In this document: positions 5,256 through 22,635 of the stretch, piece by piece
Layout: the number at the start of each line of letters is the position of its first letter
Position numbering within the stretch: position 1 is the stretch's first letter
Assembly (NCBI RefSeq): GCF_011305995.1
Contig: NZ_CP049910.1
Location: 1,364,001 to 1,428,000, forward strand
Direction: 5' to 3'
Length of the DNA: 64,000 nt
Source of the DNA: Diaphorobacter sp. HDW4A
Lineage (GTDB): Bacteria > Pseudomonadota > Gammaproteobacteria > Burkholderiales > Burkholderiaceae_C
Program-made: the position numbers and the translations under genes
The notes under the pieces: generated by a model
What the model saw: the letters and a program-made list of their open reading frames with translations, nothing else
Database searches by the model: none
Told to the model about the DNA's origin: nothing

Positions 5256-6215
5256 ATGCGTCGAGACACCTTTCTGAAATCTCTGGCAGCGTTGGCTGCG
5301 GTCGGCAGCCTGCCGCTTTCTGCTCGCGCGGCGGTCGCGGTGAAGATGATGCTGCCCGCCAACCCCGGCGGCGGCTGGGACACCACCGGTCGCGCGCTTG
5401 GCAAGGCGCTGCAGGACGCAGGTGTGGCTTCCTCCGTCACTTACGACAACAAGGGCGGCGCGGCCGGTGCCATCGGTTTGGCCCAGTTCGTTAACGGCTC
5501 CAAGGGCGACCCGAATGCACTGATGGTGATGGGTGCCGTGATGCTGGGCGGCATCATCACCGGCAAGCCGCCGGTGAACCTGAGCCAGGCCACGCCGATT
5601 GCGCGCTTGACCAGTGAATACAACGTGTTCGTGCTGCCCACCAATTCGCAGTTCAAGAGCATGGCCGACGTGGTCGCTCAGCTCAAGAAGGACCCTGGCA
5701 GCGTGAAGTGGGGCGGCGGTTCGCGCGGCTCTACCGAGCACATCGCGGCCGCGATGATCGCGCGCGAAGTGGGCGTCGATCCCGCCAAGATCAACTACGT
5801 GGCCTTCCGTGGAGGTGGCGAAGCGACTGCCGCCATTCTGGGAGGCAACGTGACCGTGGGCGGCAGCGGCTACAGCGAGTTTGCTGAGTACATCACGGCC
5901 GGCAAGATGAAGCCGATCGGCGTGACCTCGGCCAAGCGCCTGACCGGTCTGGACATCCCGACGCTCAAGGAGCAGGGTATCAATGTCGAGATCGGCAACT
6001 GGCGCGGCGTGTACGGCGCGCCCGGCATCTCCGCCGATCAGCGCAAGGCGCTGGTGGCGGCTGTTGAGAAGGCCGTCAAGAGCAAGGCCTGGGCCGAAGC
6101 GATGGAAAAGAACGGCTGGACTCCGGCATGGTTGGCTGGTGACGCGTTCGGCACGTTTGTTGACGAGGAGTTCGCCAGCTTGCGCGCCACGATGGTCAAG
6201 TCCGGCATGGTCTGA
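5256..6215 (+). CDS. tctC: Tripartite tricarboxylate transporter receptor (TctC/Bug family)
   Basis: A 319-residue periplasmic solute receptor. It starts MRRDTFLKSLAALAAVGSLP, with a cleavable signal peptide probably ending near SARA. The mature N-terminus carries the TctC hallmark PANPGGGWDTTGRAL; the glycine-rich WGGGSRGSTEH loop and the GGGEATAAILGGNV segment also belong to the fold. It lies first in tctCBA, directly opposite tctDE, as in citrate-type TctC systems. The actual substrate cannot be read from sequence; the Bug/TctC family binds di- and tricarboxylates, nicotinate, phthalates and others. The ATG at 5256 was chosen over a GTG at 5247 because the latter overlaps the ribosome-binding site. 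Confidence 0.92.
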   Translation: MRRDTFLKSLAALAAVGSLPLSARAAVAVKMMLPANPGGGWDTTGRALGKALQDAGVASSVTYDNKGGAAGAIGLAQFVNGSKGDPNALMVMGAVMLGGIITGKPPVNLSQATPIARLTSEYNVFVLPTNSQFKSMADVVAQLKKDPGSVKWGGGSRGSTEHIAAAMIAREVGVDPAKINYVAFRGGGEATAAILGGNVTVGGSGYSEFAEYITAGKMKPIGVTSAKRLTGLDIPTLKEQGINVEIGNWRGVYGAPGISADQRKALVAAVEKAVKSKAWAEAMEKNGWTPAWLAGDAFGTFVDEEFASLRATMVKSGMV

Positions 6216-6288
6216 GGCTTGAGTGAGTAGTCGGGGGTGCCATGTTGCAAGCGCCCTTGATTTCTTTTTCGAATCATATGTAAATCGC

Positions 6289-6311
6289 CCCTGCAGGCAG
6301 CGGGCGCAGGG
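6289..6311 (+). other. Weak stem-loop in the tctC-tctB spacer
   Basis: Within the 178-base spacer, CCCTGC at 6289-6294 can pair with GCAGGG at 6306-6311, with an 11-base GC-rich loop and no T-run. Stem-loops behind receptor genes often protect the upstream mRNA end so that more receptor than permease is made. That role here is an inference. Confidence 0.3.
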
Positions 6312-6393
6312 TGACTGTTCCCTGATCACGGGCGTTGCGCGTGTGATGCCGGATTCATTGCTCAATATTCACACATAGCAAGGGCAAAACATC

Positions 6394-6951
6394 ATGACAG
6401 ATGCTGTATCCCAAGCGTCGGCGGCCAGTCCGCTGGACGAGTTGTCCATCCCCTCTCCCAAATGGCAGGCGGCAGTCGGCGTCGGAGTTCTTGTCGTGGC
6501 CGTCGTCATGGCGACCGGCGCGCTGCAGATCCCTGGTGATGCCGGCTACGGCGGTGTCGGCCCCAACTTCATGCCATGGGCATGCGCCGTTGTGCTGGGT
6601 CTGTGCGGTGCATTGCTGATCTGGGAGGCCATGACCGGTGGCTACCGCCAGGCGGCTGATCCGGGTGGCGCCAAGCATGCCAAGCTGATTCCATTTGCCT
6701 GGGTCTCCGCAGGGCTGCTGCTCAACGCGGCGCTCATCACGCACATCGGCTTCATCTTGGGCTGCACTATGTGCTATGCGCTGGCGGTGCAAGGGCTTCG
6801 GCGCGGCGAAGATCAGACGAACCTGCTGTCGCCGGGCAATCTCGCCAAGGACGTGATCACGGGTCTTTTGATCTCGGCTCCAGTGTTCTGGCTGTTCACG
6901 CAATTTCTGGCGATCAATCTGCCAGGCCTGACAGAAACAGGGTGGCTGTGA
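6394..6951 (+). CDS. tctB: Tripartite tricarboxylate transporter small membrane subunit TctB
   Basis: A 185-residue inner-membrane protein with about four hydrophobic segments (near residues 28-48, 61-82, 104-140 and 155-175), as in TctB. The DAGYGGVGPNFMPWA loop after the first segment fits the family pattern. It forms the permease with TctA and is powered by the ion gradient while TctC delivers the substrate. Its TGA overlaps the tctA ATG by one base, indicating translational coupling. Confidence 0.9.
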   Translation: MTDAVSQASAASPLDELSIPSPKWQAAVGVGVLVVAVVMATGALQIPGDAGYGGVGPNFMPWACAVVLGLCGALLIWEAMTGGYRQAADPGGAKHAKLIPFAWVSAGLLLNAALITHIGFILGCTMCYALAVQGLRRGEDQTNLLSPGNLAKDVITGLLISAPVFWLFTQFLAINLPGLTETGWL

Positions 6952-8468
6952 TGGATATCTTCAACGCATTGATGCAGGGTTTCGCAACCGCCATCTCGCC
7001 CGCGAATCTGCTGTGGGCATTGGTCGGTTGCGCTTTGGGTACCGCCGTTGGCGTGTTGCCGGGTATCGGCCCCGCCGTAGCGGTCGCCATGCTGCTGCCG
7101 ATCACCGCCAAGGTCGACGTGACGGCCTCGATGATCTTCTTCGCCGGCATCTACTACGGTGCGATGTATGGTGGATCGACCACCTCCATTTTGTTGAACA
7201 CGCCCGGCGAAACCGCCAGCATGGTGACGGCGATGGAGGGCAACAAGATGGCCAAGAGCGGGCGCGCGGGAGCGGCGTTGGCAACCTCGGCCATCGGTTC
7301 GTTCTTCGCGGGGACGGTGGCGACGGTCGTGGTCACGCTGTTTGCGCCTACGGTGGCCGACTTTGCCGTGAAGCTGGGCCCGCCTGAATACTTCATGCTG
7401 ATGGTATTGGCCTTCACCACGGTGAGTGCGGTGCTTGGCCAGAGCAGCCTGCGCGGCATGACGGCACTGTTCCTCGGCCTGGCGCTGGGCTGCATCGGCA
7501 TGGACCAGATTTCTGGCGCCGCGCGCTACACCGCAGGCCAGATGGAACTGCTCGACGGCATCGACATCGTGCTGGTGGCGGTGGGCCTGTTCGCGGTGGC
7601 CGAGGTGCTCTACAACGCGCTCTACGAAGGCAAGGTCGAAGAGTCGCAGAACAAGCTGAGCCGCGTGTACATGACCAAGCGCGACTGGAAGCGCTCCGTT
7701 CCCGCATGGATTCGCGGCACGCTCATCGGCACGCCCTTCGGCTGCATTCCCGCTGGCGGAACCGAGATCCCGACGTTCCTCTCGTATGCCACTGAAAAGA
7801 AGCTGGCCAAGGGCTCAGACAAGGCAGAGTTTGGTACGACGGGCGCGATTGAAGGCGTGGCTGGCCCCGAAGCCGCCAACAACGCCACCGTGACCGCCGC
7901 GCTGATCCCGCTGCTCACGCTGGGTATCCCTACCAGCAACACGACTGCCGTGCTGTTGGGGGCGTTCCAGAACTACGGCATCAACCCCGGCCCGCAGCTG
8001 TTCACGACCTCCGCCACGCTGGTCTGGGCGTTGATCGCATCGCTCTACATCGGCAACATCATGCTGCTGGTGCTCAATCTGCCGATGGTCGGCATGTGGG
8101 TGAAGTTGCTCAAGATTCCGCGTCCGCAACTCTACGCCGGCATCCTGATCTTCGCGACGGTGGGTGCCTACGGCATGCGCCAAAGTACGTTCGACCTGTT
8201 CCTGCTGTATTTCATCGGCCTGCTGGGTGTGCTGATGCGCCGCTACGACTTCCCGACGGCTCCCGTGGTTGTCGGCATGATCCTCGGCCCGCTCGCAGAA
8301 GCGCAGATGCGCAATGCCGTGTCCATTGGCGAAGGCAGCTGGATGATCTTCCTGCAACGCCCGATGTCGGTGACCTTGCTGGTGATCGTGCTGATGGTGC
8401 TGTTCATTCCGCGCTTCATGCGCTGGATGGGCAAGCGCAAGGGCGTGGAGATGACCGAGGCGGTCTGA
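6951..8468 (+). CDS. tctA: Tripartite tricarboxylate transporter large membrane subunit TctA
   Basis: A 505-residue polytopic permease with about twelve hydrophobic segments. The diagnostic glycine/proline motif [17 protein letters not shown] occurs near residue 38 and is echoed in the second half by the [17 protein letters not shown] and [17 protein letters not shown] stretches, reflecting the duplicated fold. Length and motifs match TctA. The start is the ATG at 6951, overlapping the tctB stop; upstream in-frame codons lie inside tctB. A strong terminator follows at 8494. Confidence 0.95.
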
Positions 8469-9881: not shown

Positions 9882-12578
9882 GTGATCGAGACAAGCCACA
9901 CCTCTCCCCGATTGGAGCCTGGGCGCATTGAGCGCAAGCATCTGTTGTCGCGTCTGACGGAGGCGCGGCACAAGACCTGCCTGTTGATCCATGGGCCTGC
10001 TGGCAGCGGCAAGACCTCGCTCGCGCTGCAGTGGCGCGCGCAGGCGTTGACCTTTGGGCATGACGAGGCTTGGGTGACAGTCCAGCCCGGGGACGATGGA
10101 CAGTCGCTGATGACGTCGCTGTTCGATTCGCTGGACCGCGTCGACCGCGACATCGCGCGCGAGGCGCGGCTGCTCGCCAACCGGGGCGGCGAGGCGCGCG
10201 CGGATGCTATCGCGATTGCGTTGCTGCGTGCTTTGCTGGCCCGCAGTCGTCCGCTGCTGGTGGTGATCGACGATTGGCAGAACATGCTCGACACGCGCGT
10301 CAGCGGCGTGGTGCAGACGCTGCTGGACTTTGCCCCGCCGCCGCTGCGGCTGGTGATCGTCTCCAGAAGCCTGCCGCAATTGACTTTCGCGCGATTGCGT
10401 GACCAAGGCATGCTCGAAGAGATCGGGCCGAGGGAACTGCGCTTCTCGCTGGAGGAGGTGCAGCAATATCTGCAGGCACGCCAGCCGCGCACCTGCAGCC
10501 CGGCCTTCGCGCGCAAGCTGCTGGAGGATACGGATGGCTGGGCCGCCGGCCTGCAGTTGCTCGCGCTGCAGCCGCGCGCCCCGGCATCGCCCGTGCAGAA
10601 TGCGCAGGATTTCACAGCCTACTTCAACCGCGAGGTACTGTGCCGCGTGGACAAGGACGAGATTCATGCGATGACGCGGCTGGCGGTCGCGCGCAGCTTC
10701 AATCAGGCGTTGGCCAACACGGTGGCCGGAGATCTGGTGGGGCCGGCCCTGCTGGAGCGGCTGCAGCGGGAAAACCTGTTCGTCTTGCCGTTGCAGGATG
10801 TGGCGGGGCAGGGCTGGTATCGGTTTCATCCGCTGTTTCGCGAACTGCTGCTGAACCGCTTCAAGTCTCTGCCGCAGGAAGAGAGGCAAGCCACGCATCT
10901 GGCCCTGTCCAGGTGGCTGGGAGCGAGGCGCCATCTGCGCGATGCCGTGCACCACGCGGTAGAGGCCGGGGACATGGAGCAGGCGGCGGATTGGGTGGAG
11001 CGCTGGGCGCGCGAGCTGTTTCTCAATGGTGAGCTGCAGCAATTGGTTCGCGCCGTTTCCGAACTGCCCCGGGCCATCGTCAACACGCGCCCGCCACTGC
11101 TTTTGTGGTTCGGATGGACGCAGCTCTGCTACTTTCGCTTGGAAGCCTGTCACGAGACCTTGAACGCGCTGCGCAGCCAGCTCGGCGAGCATGATCATGA
11201 AGGCCGCGCCCATTGCGTGCTGCTGGCATTTTCTCTGGCATTGCAGGAGGATGATCTCGCAACTGCGCATGCGCTGATGCCCGATCTGATGTCCATACAG
11301 CAAGGGGACGATGCGGTGCTGGTTGGCGGCAAACGCAATCTGTTGGGCTGGATGTATGGGCACACGGCGGAGTATGAAAAGGCGCGCGAGGTGCTGCAGG
11401 GCATGCCGCCATTGCGCGAGGACGGCACGCCGCTGCTCGATTCGGCCTTCGGCCATCTGATGACGCAGTCGCTGCGCGGGCTCTCCTGGCTGTACGCGGG
11501 CGATGTGCGCAATGCCGAGTCGGTGCTGCGCGACGCACTCGCGCATGCGGAAAAAGTCCTCGGCCGCCACAGCGAGATGGCCTGCAATGCAGCGGCCTAT
11601 CTGGCGGCGGTGCTCTACGAAATCAACGAACTCGAAGAGCTGCGCCAACTGCTTGATGGACGGCTCGATACGACGGAGCGGGTGGTGTTGCCCGATGCGC
11701 TGGTGACGGTGGCGCTGGTTTGCGCGCGGCAGAGCCGTCTGGATGGCAATCCGCGCGAGGCCATCGAGGGATTGGCCCGCATCGAGGAGATCGCGCACCG
11801 CCGATCCTTGGATCGCTTGCTGGCCTTTGCGATGAGCGAGCGCGTGCGCTGCCTCATGCAGATGCGCGACATGGACGGCGCTCGTCAGGTGCTGCATCAG
11901 CTGGAGTTGCTGGCCCAGCGACATGGCGAAGCGAGCAGTGCAGATGGTGCAAGCAGTACGAGTGGCCCGGTGAGCCTGCGCATTCTCGGCGTAGCGAAGT
12001 ACACGCAGGCGCTCTATCACGAGGCGAATCTCGAAGACCAGGCGGCACTGGCCGCATTGGGCGAGCGGGGCAGGGATGACACGCCATTGCTTCAGCGGCG
12101 GGATCAATGTGCGACGCTGCTGCTGCGCGCCTTGTTGTTGAGCCGACAGGGACATCGCGAGAGTGCGCTGGAAGTCATGCGCGATGCCCTGCTGCTGGGG
12201 CATCGACTGGGACTGGTGCGGACCGTGCTGGATTTCGGAGATCCGGCGCTGTCGCTTGCGGATGTCTGCGTCGAGACGCTTGGGGCGAGCGATCCCATTT
12301 TGGCTTTCTATGTCGACAGGCTGCACCAGCAGTCGCAGAAGTACCGACCGGTGCACCAGCCCGCCGATGCATCCAGCCTCGAGCCGTTGTCGGAGCGGGA
12401 GCTGGAAATCCTGCGGGCGCTGGCCCACAGCATGTCCAACAAGCGCATCGCACAGGTGCTGGGCATATCGCCCGAGACCGTGAAATGGCATCTGCGCAAC
12501 GTCTACGCCAAGCTCAAGGTGGTGGGGCGCGACGACGCCGTGGCGCGGGCACGTGATCTTGGGCTGGTGAATCGCTGA
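9882..12578 (+). CDS. MalT/LuxR-type ATPase transcriptional activator
   Basis: An 898-residue LAL-type regulator. A Walker A motif HGPAGSGKTSL (residues 37-47) and a Walker B-like LLVVIDDWQN near 125 define an NTPase domain of the MalT/STAND type. About 450 residues of helical, TPR-like repeats follow, and a LuxR-type helix-turn-helix closes the protein (LSERELEILRALAH to GISPETVKWHLRNVYAKL, from about residue 836). The start is GTG at 9882, 52 bases after the thiolase stop. Such proteins bind inducer and ATP, oligomerise and activate nearby promoters. Its position between two copies of a dyad suggests that it controls the thiolase and the kinase-dehydrogenase operon; the inducer is unknown. 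Confidence 0.88.
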   Translation: MIETSHTSPRLEPGRIERKHLLSRLTEARHKTCLLIHGPAGSGKTSLALQWRAQALTFGHDEAWVTVQPGDDGQSLMTSLFDSLDRVDRDIAREARLLANRGGEARADAIAIALLRALLARSRPLLVVIDDWQNMLDTRVSGVVQTLLDFAPPPLRLVIVSRSLPQLTFARLRDQGMLEEIGPRELRFSLEEVQQYLQARQPRTCSPAFARKLLEDTDGWAAGLQLLALQPRAPASPVQNAQDFTAYFNREVLCRVDKDEIHAMTRLAVARSFNQALANTVAGDLVGPALLERLQRENLFVLPLQDVAGQGWYRFHPLFRELLLNRFKSLPQEERQATHLALSRWLGARRHLRDAVHHAVEAGDMEQAADWVERWARELFLNGELQQLVRAVSELPRAIVNTRPPLLLWFGWTQLCYFRLEACHETLNALRSQLGEHDHEGRAHCVLLAFSLALQEDDLATAHALMPDLMSIQQGDDAVLVGGKRNLLGWMYGHTAEYEKAREVLQGMPPLREDGTPLLDSAFGHLMTQSLRGLSWLYAGDVRNAESVLRDALAHAEKVLGRHSEMACNAAAYLAAVLYEINELEELRQLLDGRLDTTERVVLPDALVTVALVCARQSRLDGNPREAIEGLARIEEIAHRRSLDRLLAFAMSERVRCLMQMRDMDGARQVLHQLELLAQRHGEASSADGASSTSGPVSLRILGVAKYTQALYHEANLEDQAALAALGERGRDDTPLLQRRDQCATLLLRALLLSRQGHRESALEVMRDALLLGHRLGLVRTVLDFGDPALSLADVCVETLGASDPILAFYVDRLHQQSQKYRPVHQPADASSLEPLSERELEILRALAHSMSNKRIAQVLGISPETVKWHLRNVYAKLKVVGRDDAVARARDLGLVNR

Positions 12579-12602
12579 CTCCCGGCGCAGGGGGAAACCC
12601 GA

Positions 12603-12640: not shown

Positions 12641-12677
12641 TGCATGATTGCGTCAAATGAAAGACAGGAGACAAATC

Positions 12678-12761: not shown

Positions 12762-12932
12762 CCGACTACGCCACAAGAAATCACGCAAAGAGCACGCAAG
12801 CCGCCCTGAGACGGCGCTGTCACGCAGTTCCACAGACCTTTCTGAAAGACATGAACCGCTCATGCCTGCGGAAGAACTGTGCCTGTTTCTTTGCGTGCCC
12901 TTCATTGCTGCATCCGATATTTCATTGGCCCG

Positions 12933-13991
12933 ATGACTCAAACCAGCTCTACATCCGCCGTCGCCCGGAGCTTCGATCCGGAACGCCTCGATGCCTTTTT
13001 GCGTGCGCACATTCCAGTGCTCGACGGCAGCATGGAACTGCAGGCCATCAACGGCGGGCAGTCCAATCCGACCTTCTTCGTGAGCTACGGCAATCGCCGG
13101 ATGGTGTTGCGCAAGAAACCCGCCGGTGAGGTGTTGCCATCGGCGCATGCCATTGACCGCGAGTATCGCGTGATGCAGGCGCTGGCCTCGACCGCGCTGC
13201 CGGTGCCGCAGATGGTGCTCTATCACGAAGGTGACGATGTGATCGGCACGCCTTTCTATCTGATGGAGCGGGTCGAGGGCCGGGTATTCAACGACAACGA
13301 TCTGCCCGGCATGACGCCCATCGAGCGCGGCGCGATTTATCAGGCCATGGCCGATACGCTTGCCACCTTGCACGCGGTGGATTGGCGCAAGGCGGGACTG
13401 GCGGATTTTGGACGCGAAGGCGGCTACTTCGAGCGCCAGTTGCGTCGCTGGCAGAAGCAGTGGGACCTCTCGCGCATTCGCGAAAACGCCGCCATCGATG
13501 AGCTTCTCGCGTGGCTCGAAAAGCACATGCCTGCTGACGACGAGACCACGCTGACGCATGGCGATTTCAAGCTCAACAATCTGCTGTTTCACCCGACTGA
13601 ACCCAAGGTGGTGGCGGTGCTGGACTGGGAGCTTTCCACGCTCGGCAATCCGCTGGCGGATGTTGCCTTCAACACGGTGGCTTGGCGCACGTTGCCGGAA
13701 GAATTCGGCGGCCTGCGGGGGCTTGATCTCGTGGCGCTTGGCATACCGTCGGAGGCTGCCTATCTTTCGCATTACTACCAGCAGTCCGGGCGCAGCTCCC
13801 CGGCACGTCAGGCCACCCCATTTCACTGGGCCTTCGCATTCATGCGCTGGGCCGTCATTTTCGAGGGCATTGCCGCACGCGCCGCACGTGGCAATGCCGT
13901 AGCCGACAACGCGTCCGAGATGGGCGCCATCGGCAGAGCCTTGGCCCAACGCGGGCTGGAGGCCATCGATTCGCCAGCGGTTGCCATTTGA
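12933..13991 (+). CDS. APH-fold phosphotransferase, ACAD10/11-like (LvaA-like hydroxyacyl-CoA kinase candidate)
   Basis: A 352-residue kinase of the aminoglycoside phosphotransferase fold. The glycine loop INGGQSNPTFFV (about residue 37) is followed by the ATP-binding Lys in MVLRKKPAG, the Brenner motif LTHGDFKLNNLLF with Asp211, and the metal-binding DWELSTLGNPLAD at residues 231-243. That last stretch is characteristic of the kinase domain fused to human ACAD10/ACAD11. In bacteria such kinases are separate and sit next to an acyl-CoA dehydrogenase, as here. In Pseudomonas putida, LvaA of this type phosphorylates 4-hydroxyvaleryl-CoA. A hydroxyacyl-CoA kinase role is therefore likely, with the substrate open. 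The start at 12933 is chosen by family N-terminus; a GTG at 12879 would add 18 residues. Confidence 0.85.
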   Translation: MTQTSSTSAVARSFDPERLDAFLRAHIPVLDGSMELQAINGGQSNPTFFVSYGNRRMVLRKKPAGEVLPSAHAIDREYRVMQALASTALPVPQMVLYHEGDDVIGTPFYLMERVEGRVFNDNDLPGMTPIERGAIYQAMADTLATLHAVDWRKAGLADFGREGGYFERQLRRWQKQWDLSRIRENAAIDELLAWLEKHMPADDETTLTHGDFKLNNLLFHPTEPKVVAVLDWELSTLGNPLADVAFNTVAWRTLPEEFGGLRGLDLVALGIPSEAAYLSHYYQQSGRSSPARQATPFHWAFAFMRWAVIFEGIAARAARGNAVADNASEMGAIGRALAQRGLEAIDSPAVAI

Positions 13992-14005
13992 CTGAGGAGA
14001 CGTTC

Positions 14006-15253
14006 TTGAATTTCCAATACCCAGAAGACACGCAGCAGATGCAGCAGACGCTGCGCCAGTTCATGGACCGCCATGTGGTGCCGCGCTATCACGACTACGA
14101 GCGCATCGCCGCGAGCGGCGTCTATCCCACCGAAGTCGTCGAACCGCTCAAGGCGCTGGCGCGCGAGGCCGGGTTGTGGAATCTGTTCCTGCCCGGTCTG
14201 CGCGACGACGAGCCCGGCACGCGTCTGTCCAACATGCAATACAGCCCGCTGGCCGAGATCATGGGCCGTGTGCCATGGGCGTCGGAGGTCTTCAACTGCA
14301 ATGCGCCAGACACCGGCAACATGGAGCTGCTGCACCTCTTCGCCACGCCGGAACAACGCGCGCGCTGGCTGGTGCCGTTGATGGACGGGACGATCCGCTC
14401 GTGCTTCTCGATGACCGAGCCCGACGTGGCCTCGTCCGATGCCACGAACATCTGCACTACCATCCGTCGCGAGGGCGACGAGTACGTGATCAATGGACGC
14501 AAGTGGTTCACCACGGGCGCGCTGCATCCGAACTGCCAATTTGCCATCGTCATGGGCGTGACGAACGAGAGCGCCGACGCGCCGCGCCACCAACGACATT
14601 CGATGGTCATCGTGCCGATGGACACGCCGGGCTTCAAGATCGAGCGCAACGTGGCCATCATGCACCACCATGCTCCCGAAGGACATTGCGAAGTCACCTA
14701 CACCAATGTGCGCGTGCCGGTCAGCAATCTGCTCGGCGAAGAGAGCGCGGGCTTCGCATTGGCCCAGGCACGCCTCGGCCCCGGTCGCGTGCACCACTGC
14801 ATGCGGACGATGGGGCAGTGCGAGCTGGCCATGGATCTCATGTGCGAGCGGGCGCTGACACGCCGTGCTTTCGGCAAGCACCTGAGTGACTACGCCAACG
14901 TGCAGGACTGGATCGCGCAGTCACGCGTGGAGATCGATCAGGCGCGCCTCTTGGTGCTGCAGGCCGCGTGGAAGATGGATACCTACGGCAACAAGGCCGC
15001 GCATATTGATGTCTCGGCCATCAAGCTGGTGGCGGCGCAACTGCAGACGCGCGTGCTGGATCGCGCCATTCAGGTGTTCGGTGCCATGGGCATTACGCCG
15101 GACACACCGCTGTCCTACCTCTGGTCCTGGGGCCGCGCGATGCGTTTCTTTGATGGCCCGGACGAGGTGCATCTGCGGGCGATTGCGCGCGCCGAGCTGT
15201 CCAAGGCCCGCGAGAACCTCGGTGCCACGGCCGTCTACTACAGCGCGACCTGA
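14006..15253 (+). CDS. Acyl-CoA dehydrogenase, ACAD10/11-like (LvaC-like)
   Basis: A 415-residue flavoprotein of the acyl-CoA dehydrogenase fold. The FAD/substrate segment CFSMTEPDVASSDATN and the following WFTTGALHPNC, the family block RLGPGRVHHCMRTMGQCE and the C-terminal QVFGAMGITPDTPLSY / GPDEVHLRAIAR are all visible. The RLGPGRxHHCMR block is that of ACAD10/11. Together with the kinase just upstream it may eliminate phosphate from a phosphoacyl-CoA to give an enoyl-CoA rather than perform a simple oxidation. The TTG start at 14006 is chosen because GAGGAG (13993-13998) sits 7 bases before it; a TTG at 13988 would overlap the kinase stop. Confidence 0.88.
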   Translation: MNFQYPEDTQQMQQTLRQFMDRHVVPRYHDYERIAASGVYPTEVVEPLKALAREAGLWNLFLPGLRDDEPGTRLSNMQYSPLAEIMGRVPWASEVFNCNAPDTGNMELLHLFATPEQRARWLVPLMDGTIRSCFSMTEPDVASSDATNICTTIRREGDEYVINGRKWFTTGALHPNCQFAIVMGVTNESADAPRHQRHSMVIVPMDTPGFKIERNVAIMHHHAPEGHCEVTYTNVRVPVSNLLGEESAGFALAQARLGPGRVHHCMRTMGQCELAMDLMCERALTRRAFGKHLSDYANVQDWIAQSRVEIDQARLLVLQAAWKMDTYGNKAAHIDVSAIKLVAAQLQTRVLDRAIQVFGAMGITPDTPLSYLWSWGRAMRFFDGPDEVHLRAIARAELSKARENLGATAVYYSAT

Positions 15254-15262
15254 GGGCTGAGC

Positions 15263-16060
15263 ATGACCTATCCCGAGAAGAACACTTCAGGCAGCGTGCT
15301 GCATTGGCGCGAAGGCGCGGTGGCGCACATCCGCTTCAACCGGCCCGCGTCGCTCAACGCCATCAACCGCGAGATGGCTGCGGGCTTTCATCGGGCGTGC
15401 AAGAACATTGCCGCTGATGCAGCCGTGCGCGCCGTGCTCGTCAGCGGTGAAGGCCGTGCGTTCATGGCGGGCGGCGACCTCGATGAAATGCTCGCGGATC
15501 CTGCACAGGCTGCGTCAGAGCTGATCGCTGGAATGCATGGCGGCATCCGCTTGTTGACCTCGATGAACGCACCGGTGGTCTGTGCTGTGCAGGGTGCCGT
15601 GGCGGGTGGTGGGCTGGGGCTGATGCTGGCCTGTGATCTGGCGATTGCTGCAGAGGGCACGCGATTTTCGGTGGCCTATCCGCTGATCGGTGCGAGCTGT
15701 GATTGCTCCACCTCCTGGGGATTGCCACGTGTGCTGGGGCTGCGCCGCGCCATGCAACTGGCGCTGTTGGGCGACACCGTCGATGCGCAAGAGGCGCTGA
15801 GCCTTGGGCTGGTCAATAGGGTGGTGCCGGTCGCATCCATGGACGCGGAGGTCGAGGCCCTGCTGCAGCGTCTTGCGAACGGGCCGACGCAGGCGCTGGG
15901 CCGCATGAAGAAGCTGCTGCGCAAGTCGTCCGAGCACGGGATCGATGCGCATCTGGATGCAGAGGCCGAGGGCTTTGTCGCGTGTTCGGGCACGGCCGAC
16001 TTCCGTGAAGGAATCAGCGCATTCCGCGAGAAACGTGCAGCGCGGTTTCAAGGCATCTGA
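15263..16060 (+). CDS. Crotonase-superfamily protein (enoyl-CoA hydratase/isomerase fold)
   Basis: A 265-residue crotonase. The oxyanion-hole motif GRAFMAGGDLDEM and the second GAVAGGGLGLMLACDLAIAA loop are intact. When aligned by eye to rat mitochondrial enoyl-CoA hydratase, the two catalytic glutamates (144 and 164) fall on Tyr in FSVAYPLIG and Gln in RAMQLALLGD, so a standard hydratase mechanism is doubtful. An isomerase, hydrolase or other CoA-ester reaction is possible. It begins 10 bases after the dehydrogenase stop and is part of the same operon. Confidence 0.85.
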   Translation: MTYPEKNTSGSVLHWREGAVAHIRFNRPASLNAINREMAAGFHRACKNIAADAAVRAVLVSGEGRAFMAGGDLDEMLADPAQAASELIAGMHGGIRLLTSMNAPVVCAVQGAVAGGGLGLMLACDLAIAAEGTRFSVAYPLIGASCDCSTSWGLPRVLGLRRAMQLALLGDTVDAQEALSLGLVNRVVPVASMDAEVEALLQRLANGPTQALGRMKKLLRKSSEHGIDAHLDAEAEGFVACSGTADFREGISAFREKRAARFQGI

Positions 16061-16089
16061 CCACTTTCCATTTTGTGAATGCAAGGCAT

Positions 16090-17103
16090 ATGAATCACAT
16101 GAAGACACGCATCACGGAACTGCTCGGAACGCGTTATCCGATCATTCAGGGCGGCATGCAATGGGTGGGCACGGCAGAGCTGGCATCGGCGGTATCCAAC
16201 GCCGGTGGGCTTGGCGTGCTCACGGCATTGACGCAGCCGACGCCCGAGGCGCTGGCGCGCGAGATAGCGCGTTGCCGCAGCATGACGGATCAACCGTTTG
16301 GTGTGAATCTCACCATTCTCCCGTCGGTCAATCCGCCGCCCTACGAGGCCTATCTCGATGCCGCCATCGACTGCGGCGTGCAGGTGCTGGAGACGGCGGG
16401 AAACAGCCCGGTCGCGTTCATCGAAAAGGCCAAGCGGCGCAACATGCGCATCGTCCACAAATGCACCAGCGTGCGCCACGCGTTGTCGGCGGAGCGCAAT
16501 GGCGTGGATGCGATCAGCATCGACGGCTTTGAATGCGCGGGGCATCCCGGGGAAGACGACGTGGGCGGGCTGGTTCTGATTCCGCTGGCGGTCCGCGCGC
16601 TGCGCATTCCAGTGATCGCCTCAGGCGGCATTGCCGACGGTCGGGGCATGGCGGCGGCCATGGCGCTGGGCGCTGAGGGCGTCAACATGGGCACGCGCTT
16701 CTGCGCGACCGTCGAGGCACCGATCCATGACGATATCAAGCAGGCTTTGGTGAATGCGGGTGAGCGTGATACCAACCTGATCTTCCGCTCATTCCGCAAC
16801 ACGGGCCGGGTTCTCAAGAACGCCATATCCGAACAGGTCGTTGCTGCCGAACGCCGCGCGGGTGGCTGCGAGTTCGCCGAGATCCAGCCGCTCGTCGCCG
16901 GCCAGCGCGGGCGTGCCACCTTGCACAGCGGTGACGTGGATGGCGGATTGGTCTGGGCCGGTCAGGTGGTCGGGCTCATCCACGATCTACCGACCTGTGA
17001 TGAGCTCATTGCGCGCATGGCCCGGGAATGCCGCGAGGCGCTTTCCCAGGCATCCCGGTGGGCAGCGGTTGAAGAAGAAGCCGGAATTTTTCAGGAAGCC
17101 TGA
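16090..17103 (+). CDS. Nitronate monooxygenase-like FMN flavoprotein
   Basis: A 337-residue FMN TIM-barrel protein of the 2-nitropropane dioxygenase/nitronate monooxygenase family. It begins ITELLGTRYPIIQGGMQWVG, has FGVNLTILP, DAISIDGFECAGHPGEDD and the FMN phosphate-binding PVIASGGIADGRGMAAAMALGA. Members within CoA-ester operons are usually annotated nitronate monooxygenase, but enoyl-reductase-like (FabK fold) activity on a CoA ester is an alternative that fits the context better than detoxification. The start is uncertain: ATG at 16090 has a weak AAGG upstream, and ATG at 16099 and GTG at 16075 are alternatives. It is followed 2 bases later by the ligase. Confidence 0.85.
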   Translation: MNHMKTRITELLGTRYPIIQGGMQWVGTAELASAVSNAGGLGVLTALTQPTPEALAREIARCRSMTDQPFGVNLTILPSVNPPPYEAYLDAAIDCGVQVLETAGNSPVAFIEKAKRRNMRIVHKCTSVRHALSAERNGVDAISIDGFECAGHPGEDDVGGLVLIPLAVRALRIPVIASGGIADGRGMAAAMALGAEGVNMGTRFCATVEAPIHDDIKQALVNAGERDTNLIFRSFRNTGRVLKNAISEQVVAAERRAGGCEFAEIQPLVAGQRGRATLHSGDVDGGLVWAGQVVGLIHDLPTCDELIARMARECREALSQASRWAAVEEEAGIFQEA

Positions 17104-17105
17104 GC

Positions 17106-18692
17106 ATGTCCAACATTCGACTCGAACAGCATTACGACCAACGCGTGCTGCGTTGCTTCAAAGACAGGCCGCGCGACGTGCTCTCGATGTGGAGCGACGC
17201 GGCGCAGAAACGGCCCGATGCCGACGCATTGATCTGCGGTGCGAAGCGATTGAGCTGGGCACAGCTCGAGAACCAGGTGCTGCGCGTGGCTGAGGCTTTG
17301 CGTTCGCGCGGCGTTGAACGCGGTGACCGCGTCGCGCTGCTGCTAGGAAATGGTGCGGAATTCGTGATCTCCACCTACGCCATTCTGGCAATTGGGGCGG
17401 TGGTGGTGCCGCTCAGCGTGCGCGATCAATCGGCCGGCATTGGATACATCTTGCGCAATTGCGGTGCCCGTGTGCTGATCCACGAAGCCTCGCTCGTTCA
17501 GGTTGTGAACGGCATGGAAGACACGCCCGGGCTCCAGCACAAGGTGAAGGTTGGGGGCATCGGTGGCGCTGATAATTTTGACGCGTTGCTTCGTCACGAA
17601 CCGCTGCCGCAAGCCGTCGAGGTGCATGAAGAAGATTTGGCGATGCTGGTCTACACCTCGGGTACCACCGGCTTTCCCAAGGGCGCGATGCTCACGCATC
17701 TTGGCATCGTGCACACCATTCTTCACTATGCGCAGTCGCTGGGGCTTGATGAGAACGTGCGCGGTTGCGCCGTCGTGCCGCTGAGCCATGTCACTGGCCT
17801 TGCCGCGATCATGGCGGTCACGCTGGGACTGGGTGGAACCTTGATCGTGGTGCCGCATTTCAAGGCAACCGAGTTGTTGCCGCTGGCGGCGCGCGAGCGC
17901 ATCAACTTCACCATCATGGTGCCGGCGATGTACCAGCTATTGTTGCTGCAGGAGGATCATCGCGAGCATGATCTCTCGTCCTGGACGGTGGGCGGTTTCG
18001 GCGGCGCCCCCATGCCGCCGGAGACCATCGACCGGCTCGGGCAGTGGCTTCCGGCGCTGCGCCTGTCCAACTGCTACGGCGCGACCGAGACGACCTCGCC
18101 GGTGGCAGTGATGCCAGCGCATCTGACGCGCGAGCATCTCGACAGCGTTGGCTTGTCCTTGCCCTGCGCGGAGATTGCGGTCATGGATGAGCAGGGTGGC
18201 GAGGTTCCTGTGGGCGAGATCGGCGAGCTGTGGCTCAAGGGGCCGATGGTCGCCAAGGGCTACTGGAACAACCCGCAGGCGACGGACGAGAACTTCATCG
18301 GCGGCTACTGGCGCAGCGGTGATGTCGGACGCGTGGACGAGCAGGGCTTTTTGTACGTGATGGATCGCCGCAAGGACATGCTCAATCGCGGCGGCTACAA
18401 GATTTTCAGCGTGGAGGTGGAAAACACACTGTGCGAGCATCCGGCGGTGCTCGAGGCCGCCGTGGTCGCCAAGCCGTGCCCGGTGCTGGGCGAGCGGGTC
18501 CATGTGTTTATCACGCTGCGCGAGCACAGCGAGGCCGAAGCAGTTGAGCTGCGCAGCTTCTGCGCCAAACGTCTGGCGGATTACAAGGTGCCGGAGAGCT
18601 TCACGGTCAGCCATGACCCGCTGCCCCGCAACGCCAACGGCAAGCTGCTCAAGCGCGTGCTGCGCGAAGAGCTGCTGGCCACCTTGGGTTGA
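17106..18692 (+). CDS. AMP-forming acyl-CoA synthetase
   Basis: A 528-residue ANL-superfamily ligase. The phosphate-binding loop LVYTSGTTGFPKGAMLTH (about residue 182), the YGATETTSP motif, the hinge RSGDVGRVDEQGFLYVMDRRKDML and the C-terminal catalytic Lys in NANGKLLKRVLREE are complete. It would activate the free acid substrate of this pathway to its CoA ester with ATP. It sits in the middle of the operon, 2 bases after the flavoprotein gene. Chain specificity cannot be predicted by eye. Confidence 0.92.
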   Translation: MSNIRLEQHYDQRVLRCFKDRPRDVLSMWSDAAQKRPDADALICGAKRLSWAQLENQVLRVAEALRSRGVERGDRVALLLGNGAEFVISTYAILAIGAVVVPLSVRDQSAGIGYILRNCGARVLIHEASLVQVVNGMEDTPGLQHKVKVGGIGGADNFDALLRHEPLPQAVEVHEEDLAMLVYTSGTTGFPKGAMLTHLGIVHTILHYAQSLGLDENVRGCAVVPLSHVTGLAAIMAVTLGLGGTLIVVPHFKATELLPLAARERINFTIMVPAMYQLLLLQEDHREHDLSSWTVGGFGGAPMPPETIDRLGQWLPALRLSNCYGATETTSPVAVMPAHLTREHLDSVGLSLPCAEIAVMDEQGGEVPVGEIGELWLKGPMVAKGYWNNPQATDENFIGGYWRSGDVGRVDEQGFLYVMDRRKDMLNRGGYKIFSVEVENTLCEHPAVLEAAVVAKPCPVLGERVHVFITLREHSEAEAVELRSFCAKRLADYKVPESFTVSHDPLPRNANGKLLKRVLREELLATLG

Positions 18693-18706
18693 AAAGGGAG
18701 CGCGAC

Positions 18707-19513
18707 ATGCAAACACCTGCAGCTTCCATCCAAACTGTGCAGCCAGGCATTGCCCTGCTGCGCTTGGAACGACCCAAGCAACTCAATGCGCTGAGTCTGC
18801 CCGACCTGCGCTCCATTCACTGCCTGCTCGATCAGGTGCTGTCCGATGCTTCACTGCGCGTGCTGATCCTGACGGGAGAAGGCGACGGCTTCTGCGCCGG
18901 TCTGAACCTCAAATCGATGCTGGATGCGAACGGAGGAGTTCGCGCGTCCGTCGCAGAACACATGGAGTTGCAGCAGACCTTTGCCGGGCTGGTGCAGCGC
19001 CTGCGGGACACGCCTCTTGCCGTCATCGCGGCGGTCAATGGCGTCGCTGTGGGTGCGGGCATGGCGATGGCGTTGGCGGCCGATATCCGATTTGCAGACC
19101 CCAAGGCGTCATTTCATGTGGGCGCGGTGAAGATCGGCATCACCGCAGGCGAGTGCGGCATCAGCTACCACTTGCCGCGACTCATCGGCGCAGGCCGCGC
19201 TTTTGAATTGATGCTGAGCGGCCGTGCGGTTGCTGCAGAAGAAGCCTTGCGTATCGGGCTGGTGAGCGATGTGGTGGACAAGGGCGCGGTGCTGGAGCGC
19301 GCGCTGTATTGTGCGCGCCAGATCGCCGGAAACGCTCCCTATGCCACGGCACACACCAAGAAGCTGATGTGGCAGAACCTCGATGCGTCGAGCCTGAAGG
19401 CCGCCATCGAGTTGGAGAACCACGCCCAGGTGTTGGGTCTGATGACGGCGGATTTTCAGGAGGCCGTGCAGGCATTTCTGCAGAAACGCGATCCGGTTTT
19501 CACCGGACGATAG
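18707..19513 (+). CDS. Enoyl-CoA hydratase/isomerase family protein
   Basis: A 268-residue crotonase, the second of the operon and not a close copy of the first. It has ALSLPDLR, the oxyanion-hole motif GDGFCAGLNLKSM and NGVAVGAGMAMALAADIRFA. Aligned by eye to rat enoyl-CoA hydratase, the Glu144 position is Ala (HVGAVKIG) but Glu164 is kept (FELMLSG), and an extra Glu occurs in TAGECGIS. Hydratase or isomerase activity is therefore plausible but not certain. GGGAG before the ATG at 18707 supports this start, giving a 14-base spacer from the ligase. Confidence 0.88.
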   Translation: MQTPAASIQTVQPGIALLRLERPKQLNALSLPDLRSIHCLLDQVLSDASLRVLILTGEGDGFCAGLNLKSMLDANGGVRASVAEHMELQQTFAGLVQRLRDTPLAVIAAVNGVAVGAGMAMALAADIRFADPKASFHVGAVKIGITAGECGISYHLPRLIGAGRAFELMLSGRAVAAEEALRIGLVSDVVDKGAVLERALYCARQIAGNAPYATAHTKKLMWQNLDASSLKAAIELENHAQVLGLMTADFQEAVQAFLQKRDPVFTGR

Positions 19514-19522
19514 GAGGGCGTG

Positions 19523-20041
19523 ATGGACAACATGCCAATGGCTGATCCGGTGGTGAAAAGCATCTGTCGTGATCTGGAGGATCTGCTCACGCAGGTCGGC
19601 TCCGAGGTGTATTGCAGCGACTGGACCCTGATCGAGCAGACGCGCATCGACAGATTCGCAGAGGCGACGGGTGACTTTCAGTGGATTCATGTGAACCCCG
19701 AACGCGCGGCGCAGGAGTCGCCGTTTGGTGGAACGATTGCGCACGGCTTTCTCTCGCTGTCCTTGCTAGGCAAGCACTACGAGGAGTTTTTGCCGCAGTG
19801 GTTGCCGTTCTGCGACATAGGCATCAACTACGGACTCAACCGGGTGCGGTTCATTCAGCCGGTGCGCTCGGGCAGCAGGGTGCGCAGCCGGTTTGTGCTG
19901 GGTGAGGTGAGCGAGGCTGGTGGCGGTGTGCAAATGCTGTTCAACGTGACCGTGGAGCTGCAAGGGCAGAGCAAACCCGCCCTTGTGGCGGAGTCGGTGA
20001 TTCGCCGCCAGTTCAGAAACAGAAAAGGAGGCCCGATGTGA
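19523..20041 (+). CDS. MaoC-like (R)-specific hydratase, NodN type
   Basis: A 172-residue hot-dog-fold protein. The hydratase 2 motif RFAEATGDFQWIHVNPERA with Asp and His, then PFGGTIAHGFLSLSL, is complete and characteristic of NodN/MaoC-like dehydratases. It should hydrate an enoyl-CoA or dehydrate an (R)-3-hydroxyacyl-CoA, complementing the two crotonases whose catalytic residues are unusual. An AGGAGG at 19512-19517 directs the ATG at 19523. Its end overlaps the next gene by 4 bases. Confidence 0.88.
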   Translation: MDNMPMADPVVKSICRDLEDLLTQVGSEVYCSDWTLIEQTRIDRFAEATGDFQWIHVNPERAAQESPFGGTIAHGFLSLSLLGKHYEEFLPQWLPFCDIGINYGLNRVRFIQPVRSGSRVRSRFVLGEVSEAGGGVQMLFNVTVELQGQSKPALVAESVIRRQFRNRKGGPM

Positions 20042-21012
20042 AGGCGTTGATGTGCACTCAATTCGGACCACCCTCGTCGCTTCAGGTGCTTGAACAGCCA
20101 TTGATGACTGCGGGCCACGGTGAGGTGGTGGTCGCCGTCAAGGCGGCGGGGATCAACTTTCCCGACACGCTGATCATCGAAGATCGCTACCAGATCAAGG
20201 CCCCGCTGCCGTTCAGCCCTGGTGGCGAGTTCTCCGGCGTGATTGAGGAGGTTGGCGCGGATGTTCCGGATCTCGTGGCTGGTCAGGAGGTCATCGGATT
20301 CGTCGGCTGGGGCGCGTTTGCACGGCAGATCCGCGTGCAGCCGCCGGCGCTTTTTGCGATGCCTGCCGGGCTTCCGTTCGACGTCGCGGGCTCGTTCCTG
20401 ATGACCTATGGAACGGCATACCACGCGCTGCGGGACCGGGCTCAGCTTATGGCAGGCGAGACGGTGCTGGTGCTGGGGGCTGCAGGTGGACTGGGCATTG
20501 CGAGCATCGAACTCGCGAAGGCGCTCGGTGCCAAGGTGATCGCTGCCGCATCGTCTGCGGAAAAGCTGGCTGTTTGCCGTGCTCATGGAGCCGACGAGAC
20601 CATCGACTACGAGCACGAGGATCTGCGCGAGCGGCTGAAAAAAATCACGGGCGGACGCGGGGTCGATGTGGTCTGCGATGTCGTGGGTGGCCGCTTCAGC
20701 GAGCCTGCTTTGCGCAGTGTAGGCTGGCGTGGGCGTTTTCTGGTGATCGGCTTTGCGGGCGGCGAGATTCCGCGCATCGCGCTCAATCTGCCGCTGCTCA
20801 AGGGATGCGCCATCGTCGGTGTGTTCTGGGGCGACTACCTGAAGCGCGAGCGCTCAAGGGTCGAGGGTGACATCCGGACGCTGGCGGATCTGTATTCAGC
20901 AGGTCGCATCCGGCCCCTGATTTCGCAACGCTTCTCGTTGGAGGAAACACCTGCTGCGCTGGAGGCCGTCCGTCAGCGCAAGGCCATGGGCAAAGGAGTT
21001 GTCGTGCCCTGA
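20038..21012 (+). CDS. NADPH:quinone oxidoreductase-like zinc-free MDR protein
   Basis: A 324-residue medium-chain dehydrogenase/reductase of the quinone oxidoreductase branch. It has PFSPGGEFSGVIEEVG, the nucleotide-binding GAAGGLGIASIELAKALGAKVIAAASS and no zinc-ligand set. The operon suggests that it acts on an enoyl-CoA or a derived ketone rather than a free quinone. It starts at GTG 20038 inside the MaoC-like stop (ATGTGA overlap), so expression is coupled. It is the last gene of the operon that is tightly packed. Confidence 0.85.
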   Translation: MKALMCTQFGPPSSLQVLEQPLMTAGHGEVVVAVKAAGINFPDTLIIEDRYQIKAPLPFSPGGEFSGVIEEVGADVPDLVAGQEVIGFVGWGAFARQIRVQPPALFAMPAGLPFDVAGSFLMTYGTAYHALRDRAQLMAGETVLVLGAAGGLGIASIELAKALGAKVIAAASSAEKLAVCRAHGADETIDYEHEDLRERLKKITGGRGVDVVCDVVGGRFSEPALRSVGWRGRFLVIGFAGGEIPRIALNLPLLKGCAIVGVFWGDYLKRERSRVEGDIRTLADLYSAGRIRPLISQRFSLEETPAALEAVRQRKAMGKGVVVP

Positions 21013-21153
21013 AACCACTTCATCTTCACCGTTTCCGTCTGGACAACCTGCGTGGACATCGACGACAGAGATCGTCATGCGGATGCAGGCGTGATCGCCA
21101 GGGCGGCCCATGGGTCGTCCTCTATCCAAACCCATTTTCCGAATGGATGAATC

Positions 21154-22461
21154 ATGACGAATGCAAACACCCTGACCGCTGACGCCGTGGCCAAGGCCAG
21201 TGAGAACGGAGCACCTGCCGACGCCAAGCGCGCCGCAGTGTCGGGTTTCGTGGGCACCCTGATCGAGTATTACGATTTCAGTCTGTATGGCTACATGGCG
21301 GTGGTGATCGCGCCGCTGTTCTTCCCGAGCGGCGATCCCACGGTCTCGCTTCTGGCCGCGCTGGCGGTGTTCGGCACGGCCTATGTGGTGAGACCCCTGG
21401 GCGGGATTTTCTTCGGCCACATCGGTGACCGATACGGGCGCAAGACAGCGCTGCTTGGAACGCTGATCTGCATGGGTATCGGCAGTACGCTGATGGGGCT
21501 GCTTCCCACGTTCGATCAACTGGGATATTTCGCAACCGCCTTGCTTGTTCTGGTGCGGCTGCTGCAGGGCTTCTCTGCGGGTGGTGAGGTGGGCGGCTCG
21601 GCGACCTTCATTTCGGAGTCGTCCCCGCCGCACATGAAGGCCACGTTCGGCGCGTTCACTCCCATGGGCTCGACCGGCGGGTTCGCAGTGGCCGCAGCCG
21701 TGGCAGGGGTGGTCACCGCCTTCACCACGCCGGAGCAGATGAGTTCGTGGGGCTGGCGCATTCCGTTCCTGCTGGCGCTGCCGCTGACGTTGCTATGCAT
21801 CTGGGCACGTACCCGGGTGAAGGAAACCTACGAAGGCAAGCCCGAGAAGAAGGAGCACTCGCCCATCGGTGCGATCTTCCGTCTGCAGACCAAGGCACTG
21901 CTGCAATCCACCGCGATCAGCGCTGCCACCAATGGCACGGCCTACATCGGCTTGACTTACATGAGCATCCATCTGGTCAAGCAGCTGGGCTATCCAGCAG
22001 GCAGCGTGTACTGGGTTGCCACGTTGGCGATTGGTCTCTCGGCGCTGCTGATGCCGGTCGGGGGCATCATCGGGGACCGCATCGGGCTGCGGCGTCTGAT
22101 GCTCGTTGGCCTGATCGGCTACATCGTGCTGACCTATCCGATGATGGGTCTGATGGGGCAAAGCCTGACGGTCGCCACATGGGCCTACGTGGTGCTGATG
22201 CTCAACACCGTGGCAACCCAGGTCAGTGCCTACACGCTGCTGCCCCTGCTATTCAAGCCTGAATACCGCTACACCGGTGTGGCCTCAGGCTGGAACTTTG
22301 GCGTCATCATCGCGGGCGGCACGGCTCCGTATGTGGCGGTGAAGCTGGTGCAGGTAACGGAAAACAAACAGTCCCCTGCGTTTTTTGTGATTGCAGCGGC
22401 CATCATCGGACTGATCGGTGTTCTGTCGATCCACCGTGATCGCGGACGATCTGTCACCTGA
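21154..22461 (+). CDS. MFS transporter, metabolite:H+ symporter (MHS) family
   Basis: A 435-residue transporter with twelve hydrophobic segments. The MHS signature is clear: LIEYYDFSLYGYMAVVIAPLFFP near residue 32, GHIGDRYGRKTALLGTLICMGIGS and RLLQGFSAGGEVGGSATFI. Such carriers import organic acids (shikimate, alpha-ketoglutarate, dicarboxylates, aromatic acids). It follows the catabolic operon by 141 bases, so it probably takes up the acid that the ligase activates. That spacer has a CCCATGGG palindrome but no copy of the GGGTGG dyad. Confidence 0.9.
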   Translation: MTNANTLTADAVAKASENGAPADAKRAAVSGFVGTLIEYYDFSLYGYMAVVIAPLFFPSGDPTVSLLAALAVFGTAYVVRPLGGIFFGHIGDRYGRKTALLGTLICMGIGSTLMGLLPTFDQLGYFATALLVLVRLLQGFSAGGEVGGSATFISESSPPHMKATFGAFTPMGSTGGFAVAAAVAGVVTAFTTPEQMSSWGWRIPFLLALPLTLLCIWARTRVKETYEGKPEKKEHSPIGAIFRLQTKALLQSTAISAATNGTAYIGLTYMSIHLVKQLGYPAGSVYWVATLAIGLSALLMPVGGIIGDRIGLRRLMLVGLIGYIVLTYPMMGLMGQSLTVATWAYVVLMLNTVATQVSAYTLLPLLFKPEYRYTGVASGWNFGVIIAGGTAPYVAVKLVQVTENKQSPAFFVIAAAIIGLIGVLSIHRDRGRSVT

Positions 22462-22615
22462 ACGGGAGCTGTTTGACGTTCTCAAAGGGGCCTGCTTCCG
22501 CTAGGGAGTCTGGCTCCTTACTTCTTGCAATGTTCAAGCAAACGGTTTCAAAAACATCATCAAAAATACAGAAGTACCAATATGATCACAACTTGACCGG
22601 ACGGGATGTTGTTGC

Positions 22616-22635
22616 GCGCAAACATGTGTTTGCGC
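22616..22635. other. Near-perfect palindrome in the MFS-ArsR gap
   Basis: GCGCAAACA (22616-22624) and TGTTTGCGC (22627-22635) are perfect 9-base arms around TG. Only TTTAAT follows, so it could be a weak terminator of the transporter gene or an operator. The rest of the 369-base gap 22462-22830 contains AT-rich sequence, a likely promoter zone around 22715-22735 (CATATG, TATACG) before the regulator gene, and no convincing ORF. Confidence 0.5.

Follow-up and report, generated by a model that had tools for sequence, protein, structure and literature searches.

What an operon that opens with a kinase and an acyl-CoA dehydrogenase (ACAD), resembling the two halves of ACAD11, could serve to degrade is the question raised by a locus of Diaphorobacter sp. 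HDW4A. The locus lies in a stretch of 64,000 nucleotides (C1:1364001-1428000; hereafter the window) of a genome of 6.76 Mb in 3 contigs. Nine plus-strand genes fill positions 12933-22461, in the order kinase, ACAD, crotonase 1, flavoprotein, CoA ligase, crotonase 2, MaoC protein, medium-chain dehydrogenase/reductase (MDR) and major facilitator superfamily (MFS) transporter. An earlier note on this DNA had described such a nine-gene operon, and all of its genes were located on that strand at the positions it gave, with Pfam support. Based on our analysis, the operon probably degrades an imported small or medium carboxylic acid whose C4 carries a hydroxyl group or receives one, by phosphorylation and subsequent elimination of phosphate. 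This chemistry on a 4-hydroxyacyl-CoA, which the earlier note had also proposed, appears sound and is the best-supported one, given that the diagnostic residues are kept, and it is already known from other systems. Gene content, gene order, conservation of the diagnostic residues and co-occurrence of kinase and ACAD are direct observations; the chemistry is inferred from published work on ACAD10/11.

The kinase and the ACAD

The first gene (12933..13991, +) encodes an APH-fold kinase (Pfam APH, 187 bits, E 5.9e-55), identified by its PDB matches and residues as a homologue of the ACAD10/11 kinase domain. Its closest solved structures are PDB 3dxp (7e-96), whose entry names it a putative acyl-CoA dehydrogenase, and mouse ACAD11 8v3v (9e-72). 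The motifs quoted in the earlier note, HGDFKLNN and DWELSTLGNPLAD, are both present in the sequence. HGDFKLNN is a feature of the protein kinase-like (PKL)/APH fold and provides the catalytic Asp and the following Asn, equivalent to D220 and N225, and the alignment revealed equivalents of R176 and of the DWE aspartate as well. R176, D220 and N225, the residues scored, were kept in 33 of 33 rows of kinases located beside the same ACAD type, two of these rows being the window's own; the mapping placed no arginine at position 86.

The second gene (13988..15253, +) overlaps the kinase gene by 4 nt and encodes an ACAD of the ACAD10/11 type with Pfam Acyl-CoA_dh domains, predicted from PDB matches and aligned residues to eliminate phosphate. 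It contains the quoted motif RLGPGRVHHCMR. The closest solved structures are 4hr3 (5e-115), which we take to be a mycobacterial protein, human ACAD11 2wbi (7e-113) and mouse ACAD11 (3e-112), while other solved ACADs are far weaker matches (next E 8e-38). Over 391 residues, the window protein is 46% identical to the dehydrogenase domain of human ACAD11. ACAD11 structures therefore rank right after 4hr3 for the ACAD and right after 3dxp for the kinase, in support of the proposed chemistry. In mouse ACAD11, R626, H634 and R637 bind the 4-phosphate, R631 orients the substrate and D753 is catalytic, as reported in PMC12440821. These residues align with R626 to R262, R631 to R267, H634 to H270, R637 to R273 and D753 to D389 of the window ACAD; together with the PDB matches, they bear out the assignment of the two proteins to the two ACAD11 halves. 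The set R, R, HCMR, D was intact in 98 of 102 distinct aligned rows of the window type, one of them from the window's own locus, with three HAMR and one HSMR as exceptions, and in all 41 rows of a second, housekeeping type (41/41); more distant ACAD rows retain H[CA]MR.

Lineage of the kinase/ACAD pair

We surveyed ACAD homologues in 200 genomes of the family, scoring at most 8 candidates per genome. At E <= 1e-125 the ACAD was present in 160 of the 200, and the window type (59-100% identity) in 20, the other matches listed being 57% identical or below. Among 119 Pseudomonadaceae genomes, 25 encode a window-type ACAD (59-64%), with the other matches listed at 55% or below. An ACAD was also found in 119 plasmid records, of which 11 were at 60-80%. 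In a tree of 103 tips the window type formed a group without human ACAD11 (FastTree support 0.76), and a tree of 29 sampled tips gave this group SH-aLRT/UFBoot values of 89.8/84. Human ACAD11 falls in a clade with the bacterial housekeeping type, and the window ACAD lies outside that clade. With moderate tree support, the window type appears to be a lineage separate from the housekeeping type.

The kinase clusters in the trees with kinases located beside the window ACAD type, from Comamonadaceae and Alphaproteobacteria. In IQ-TREE this clade received 100/100 with 11 tips, 91.9/95 with 14 and 8.6/43 with 15, and the same 15-tip clade received 1.0 in FastTree, so that support is mixed between programs. 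Kinases this close are uncommon: of 369 genomes surveyed in the class, 3 encode one at E <= 1e-95, the window genome included. Within the genus, all 6 of 6 genomes have a kinase at E <= 1e-100; the window kinase type is found in the window genome and G202 only, where the homologue is 86% identical and cut by a contig end, and the other four genomes have kinases of 48-52% identity.

Three kinase/ACAD pairs are encoded in the genome, namely the window pair, the housekeeping pair (C1:2567593/2568648) and a third pair (C1:4744029/4745845), and all three ACADs retain R, R, HCMR, D. The window pair therefore adds to a general ACAD10/11-like function. The housekeeping kinase likewise adjoins its ACAD, which bears the HCMR motif, but identity to the window pair is 43% for the kinase and 50-52% for the ACAD. 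That pair adjoins a crotonase gene and, judged by eye, a 3-hydroxyacyl-CoA dehydrogenase-like gene; no homologue of the operon ligase or MFS transporter was found in the 18-kb stretch. The third pair is 51% (kinase) and 34-35% (ACAD) identical to that of the window and has a short-chain dehydrogenase/reductase (SDR) gene between kinase and ACAD. At the third pair (G000:C1:4744029-4747005), as in L181:7973-10259, the kinase adjoins a 34-35% ACAD with the motif RL(A/V)PARLTHCMR, and such ACADs may represent a third, uncharacterised ACAD10/11-like type. The ACADs of the third pair, of L177 and of L181 all retain R, R, HCMR and D, in a variant context.

Gene neighbourhoods of related loci

We compared the neighbourhoods of 80 named loci with a related ACAD. 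A kinase of at least 38% identity lies within 3.5 kb of the ACAD in 28 of the 80. When 16 loci from 15 genomes were considered (L045 left out), a kinase at E <= 1e-40 was present in 15/15 genomes, even in those without an adjacent kinase. An SDR (at least 38%) lies within 3.5 kb in 16 of the 28 kinase-bearing loci. A histidine phosphatase accompanies 15 of these 16, those of Burkholderia and Paraburkholderia included; the exception, L039, has a divergently transcribed SDR.

The comparison within Comamonadaceae, suggested in the earlier note, revealed that the order of the kit recurs. The closest named record, L037, is a Comamonadaceae metagenome-assembled genome with a 91% identical ACAD. L037, L038 (Acidovorax) and L040 (Hydrogenophaga) share the order kinase, ACAD, crotonase 1, NADH:quinone oxidoreductase (NQO)-type flavoprotein, ligase and crotonase 2. 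L126 has the kinase, ACAD, crotonase 1 and flavoprotein genes with an 80% identical thiolase and an ATP-binding cassette (ABC) transporter, and a different ligase. In the alphaproteobacterial loci L056, L058, L064 and L072, we found kinase, ACAD, ligase (46-48%), MDR (45-50%) and crotonase genes, and some of these loci add MaoC-type, thiolase or 3-hydroxyacyl-CoA dehydrogenase genes. The transporter varies: MFS in the window and L038, a tripartite ATP-independent periplasmic (TRAP) type in L040 and, by clustering, L058; L126 and L072 have ABC transporters whose binding protein looks branched-chain/urea-like, with scores under the NCBIfam cut-offs. The ACAD homologue of L126 (L126:10180-11437, G114) is split over two reading frames, by a frameshift or a sequencing error.

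A companion SDR, divergent and adjoining the kinase or regulator gene, is encoded in L126 (about 8184-8984, -), L040 (2023-2820, -) and L039 (8057-8761, -), with 80-90% identity among the three loci; none is present in window positions 1-30000. It is 39-43% identical to the SDR beside the related kinase of L161, and the closest gene in the window genome (56-57%, C1:2784747) lies in a stretch without operon homologues. CoA-transferase family III, the superfamily of alpha-methylacyl-CoA racemase, is represented next to the kit in L040 (15728-16834) and next to the ACAD in L041 (8914-9993), the two genes being 68% identical (tblastn), which hints at a possible CoA-transfer or racemase step.

Among Pseudomonadaceae, L177:7458-13409 (G684:C31) encodes a distant but motif-bearing ACAD (34%) with a kinase (46%), crotonases, a thiolase (61%) and an NQO-type flavoprotein (66%), so the kinase, thiolase and flavoprotein set recurs with another ACAD type. 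L153 (7628-7939), L182 and L184 have a gene for a protein of about 103 aa and a histidine phosphatase-like gene next to a 28-31% kinase and an SDR; the arrangement of small protein, kinase and SDR is reminiscent of LvaB/LvaA/LvaD.

Remaining genes and the proposed pathway

With the chosen starts, the successive intergenic distances between kinase and MDR gene are -4, 9, 29, 2, -4, 9 and -4 nt, and these eight genes are therefore very probably co-transcribed as one transcript. The MFS gene follows 141 nt after the MDR gene, and 354 nt separate the end of the preceding regulator gene from the kinase start. When 12500-23000 was scanned for sigma-70 promoters and for terminators, hits stayed at chance level (2 sites with 2.1 expected; 9 with 7.0 expected).

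Crotonase 1 (15263..16060, +; Pfam ECH_1, 185 bits), an enoyl-CoA hydratase/isomerase, reached no NCBIfam cut-off among the matches listed (25 of 73). The flavoprotein (16090..17103, +; alternative starts 16075 and 16099) had been noticed earlier simply as such; its presence stands, and it can be refined to an FMN protein of the PA1024 NADH:quinone oxidoreductase type (Pfam NMO; PDB 2gjl/6e2a, 412 bits). A link to steroid rings, as with Comamonas and NPD-type flavoproteins, was considered and dropped for lack of support. Next come an AMP-forming acyl-CoA ligase (17106..18692, +; Pfam AMP-binding, 307 bits), crotonase 2 (18689..19513, +; Pfam ECH_1, 173 bits) and a MaoC-type enoyl-CoA hydratase (19523..20041, +; alternative start 19520; Pfam MaoC_dehydratas, 80 bits; PDB Rv0130 2c2i, 5e-36). 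The MDR oxidoreductase of the quinone/enoyl reductase type (20038..21012, +; Pfam ADH_zinc_N, 101 bits) scored 208 bits against the NCBIfam PIG3 family, below the cut-off of 297. The MFS transporter (21154..22461, +; Pfam MFS_1) resembles metabolite/H+ symporters (TIGR00883, 353 bits, below the cut-off of 443) and has an 85% identical homologue in L038, placed after crotonase 2.

Upstream, a MalT-type LuxR regulator (9882..12578, +; Pfam GerE, TPR_MalT and AAA_16) is likely to be the operon regulator, with homologues upstream of the kinase in L038 (72%) and L040 (56%). The thiolase, which the earlier note had placed elsewhere, is in fact a near neighbour (about 8645-9829, +; NCBIfam PRK06504, 714 bits, cut-off 590) and probably belongs to the pathway; its homologues occur in the L126 stretch (80%) and adjoining the ACAD in L041 (71%). 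A TctCBA tripartite carboxylate transporter (5256..8468, +; Pfam TctC, TctB and TctA) is associated with the operon by neighbourhood only. Divergent from it are two-component sensor/regulator genes (2976-5119, -), and an epimerase-like gene (1897-2856, -) is the nearest gene of the SDR superfamily noticed by eye. Directly downstream of the operon (22720-34200) lie an ArsR-type regulator gene (22720) and a sox thiosulfate-oxidation cluster, with SoxC, SoxY, SoxA and SoxB above NCBIfam cut-offs.

In the proposed pathway, the acid would be taken up by the MFS transporter and/or the TctABC system, with the MalT-type regulator presumably sensing the substrate, and the ligase would activate it to the CoA ester. 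The APH-fold kinase would then phosphorylate the 4-hydroxyl of the ester with ATP. In the ACAD, D389 would abstract a proton while R262, H270 and R273 hold the phosphate, and loss of phosphate would yield a 2-enoyl-CoA without net oxidation. A crotonase or the MaoC protein could hydrate this product, an unlinked 3-hydroxyacyl-CoA dehydrogenase would oxidise it, and the adjacent thiolase would perform thiolysis. The earlier note had called the beta-oxidation kit complete, which was overstated: Pfam identified no 3-hydroxyacyl-CoA dehydrogenase among the ten operon and regulator proteins, and tblastn with two such query proteins found none in window positions 1-30000, so the kit is incomplete. 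Likewise, tblastn with four SDR queries from related loci (E <= 1e-12) found no SDR in the same positions, and Pfam recognised a single ACAD among the operon proteins.

Alternative explanations and possible substrates

Three observations weigh against phosphate elimination from a 4-hydroxyacyl-CoA as the role of the operon. At 52 of the 80 related ACAD loci no kinase (at least 38%) lies within 3.5 kb, some contigs ending there, and the ACAD is therefore not bound to a neighbouring kinase. The ligase, the crotonases and the MDR enzyme reach no NCBIfam cut-off among the matches listed, and hence give no pointer to a given substrate. Finally, the window ACAD has S99 where human ACAD11 has P463, a proline reported as helix-breaking and pocket-widening in ACAD10/11 (PMC11342911). 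Proline occupies this position in only 2 of 102 window-type and 10 of 41 housekeeping-type rows; since it is uncommon among bacterial relatives, its absence may be unimportant, but a different pocket is conceivable.

It is unlikely, although worth considering, that the operon is a pathway for levulinate and 4-hydroxyvalerate (or gamma-valerolactone) with a gene set of its own, in which an unlinked SDR performs the keto reduction. The two key enzyme types and a ligase also occur in lva, lva sets themselves vary (the P. citronellolis cluster has no lvaB; PMC6692424), and the divergent SDR of L039, L040 and L126 could fill the LvaD role, so that the substrate might be a keto acid and not, as the earlier note had suggested, a new one. 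The window, by contrast, has no SDR of the companion type in positions 1-30000, the closest genomic gene being unlinked and 56-57% identical; counterparts of LvaB, LvaF, LvaG and the sigma-54 regulator LvaR are absent locally, and the flavoprotein, two crotonases, MaoC, MDR and thiolase genes are outside the listed lva genes. We regard as less probable still an ordinary beta-oxidation operon for branched- or odd-chain acids, whose kinase and ACAD merely clear a 4-hydroxy side product. Such a role would suit an operon made up mostly of generic beta-oxidation genes, and also the CoA-transferase family III protein that adjoins the ACAD of L041 and, in L040, the kit, but it fits poorly with kinase and ACAD being the first genes of the unit and the sole operon homologues (at least 38%) in L039 and L065, as well as in L045 and L046, where a GntR-type gene common to other loci is added. 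The lack of a second ACAD by Pfam in the window operon also speaks against it. That the kinase acts on a target other than acyl-CoA, for example as an aminoglycoside-type modifying enzyme in an incidental position, is hardly credible: it shares the fold family and has weak NCBIfam APH matches (64 bits with a cut-off of 205 for APH(3')), but scores far under the cut-offs of all nine NCBIfam families listed, its closest solved relatives are 3dxp and ACAD11, and the 4-nt overlap with the ACAD gene accompanies an adjacency kept across Beta- and Alphaproteobacteria.

Within the preferred reading of phosphorylation and phosphate elimination, a more specific proposal is tentative and somewhat doubtful, namely that kinase and ACAD form a separate lineage, inherited together in Beta- and Alphaproteobacteria, that serves a dedicated pathway from uptake to acetyl-CoA for already hydroxylated acids outside the published pathways. 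Its substrates would be gamma-hydroxy acids or the parent lactones, perhaps branched or cyclic, entering by phosphate-assisted dehydroxylation and not by keto reduction, with the NQO-type flavoprotein as a recurring partner. If a second bacterial lineage does have its own kit, this would suggest a general catabolic module and hint at where 4-hydroxy acids occur in nature; such a lineage could also supply enzymes for the conversion of lactones or hydroxy acids. The regulator, ligase and transporter should reveal the substrate.

Comparison with known systems

It is only recently that genes were linked to hydroxyl removal through phosphorylation followed by ACAD-type elimination: the lva genes in 2017 (reportedly by Rand et al. 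2017) and ACAD10/11 in 2024-2025. Less known than this chemistry is the package, i.e., a distinct ACAD type with a kit in which transporters are swapped. Our literature search by titles and abstract openings, with subscription papers mostly outside it, returned nothing describing this operon.

The window flavoprotein matches PA1024 over 317 residues with 412 bits. PA1024 is reported as an NADH:quinone oxidoreductase that, judging by the genes around it, may contribute to the breakdown of fatty acids (PMC10033279). Its NADH gate pair Q80/Y261 is V/F in the window protein (counted by hand on the alignment), and NADH:quinone oxidoreductase activity is therefore not to be assumed.

ACAD10/11, like the window pair, combine a kinase and an ACAD, and the catalytic and phosphate-binding residues agree between the two systems. 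In ACAD10/11 these are halves of one protein, whereas the window encodes two separate proteins, with their own ligase, regulator and transporter, S99 in place of P463, and an ACAD outside the human ACAD11 clade.

The lva system likewise unites an APH-type kinase, an ACAD, an acyl-CoA ligase and a transporter in one cluster. By superfamily and motifs, the window kinase and ACAD may be LvaA-like and LvaC-like, respectively. The lva set comprises LvaA, LvaB (12 kDa), LvaC, LvaD (an SDR that reduces levulinyl-CoA), LvaE (ligase), LvaF (DUF485), LvaG (a cation/acetate symporter) and LvaR, a sigma-54 regulator (PMC6692424, PMC9399607); the set varies, LvaB being present in KT2440 and lvaB absent from the P. 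citronellolis LA18T cluster (PMC6692424). The earlier note saw no lvaB, D, F or G, in agreement with our Pfam, tblastn and gap-size results. No LvaB counterpart was found in the operon, where kinase and ACAD genes overlap and gaps from the kinase to the MFS gene are at most 141 nt. For LvaD, no SDR occurs among the nine operon genes (Pfam) or in window positions 1-30000 (tblastn), with unlinked SDRs elsewhere in the genome. LvaF (DUF485) and LvaG have no local counterparts, the local transporters being MFS and TctABC, and beside the operon a MalT-type LuxR regulator stands where no LvaR counterpart was found. Conversely, the thiolase, the NQO-type flavoprotein, the two crotonases, MaoC and MDR are outside the listed lva set. 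When 119 Pseudomonadaceae genomes were searched by ACAD and kinase, none of the 36 regions read had the full lva order, two of them (L146 and L147) giving almost no gene calls; L161 came nearest, with ligase, kinase, SDR and ACAD. The local absence of LvaB, LvaD, LvaF, LvaG and LvaR counterparts argues that this is not an lva operon, but judged by its genes it would work like the lva core.

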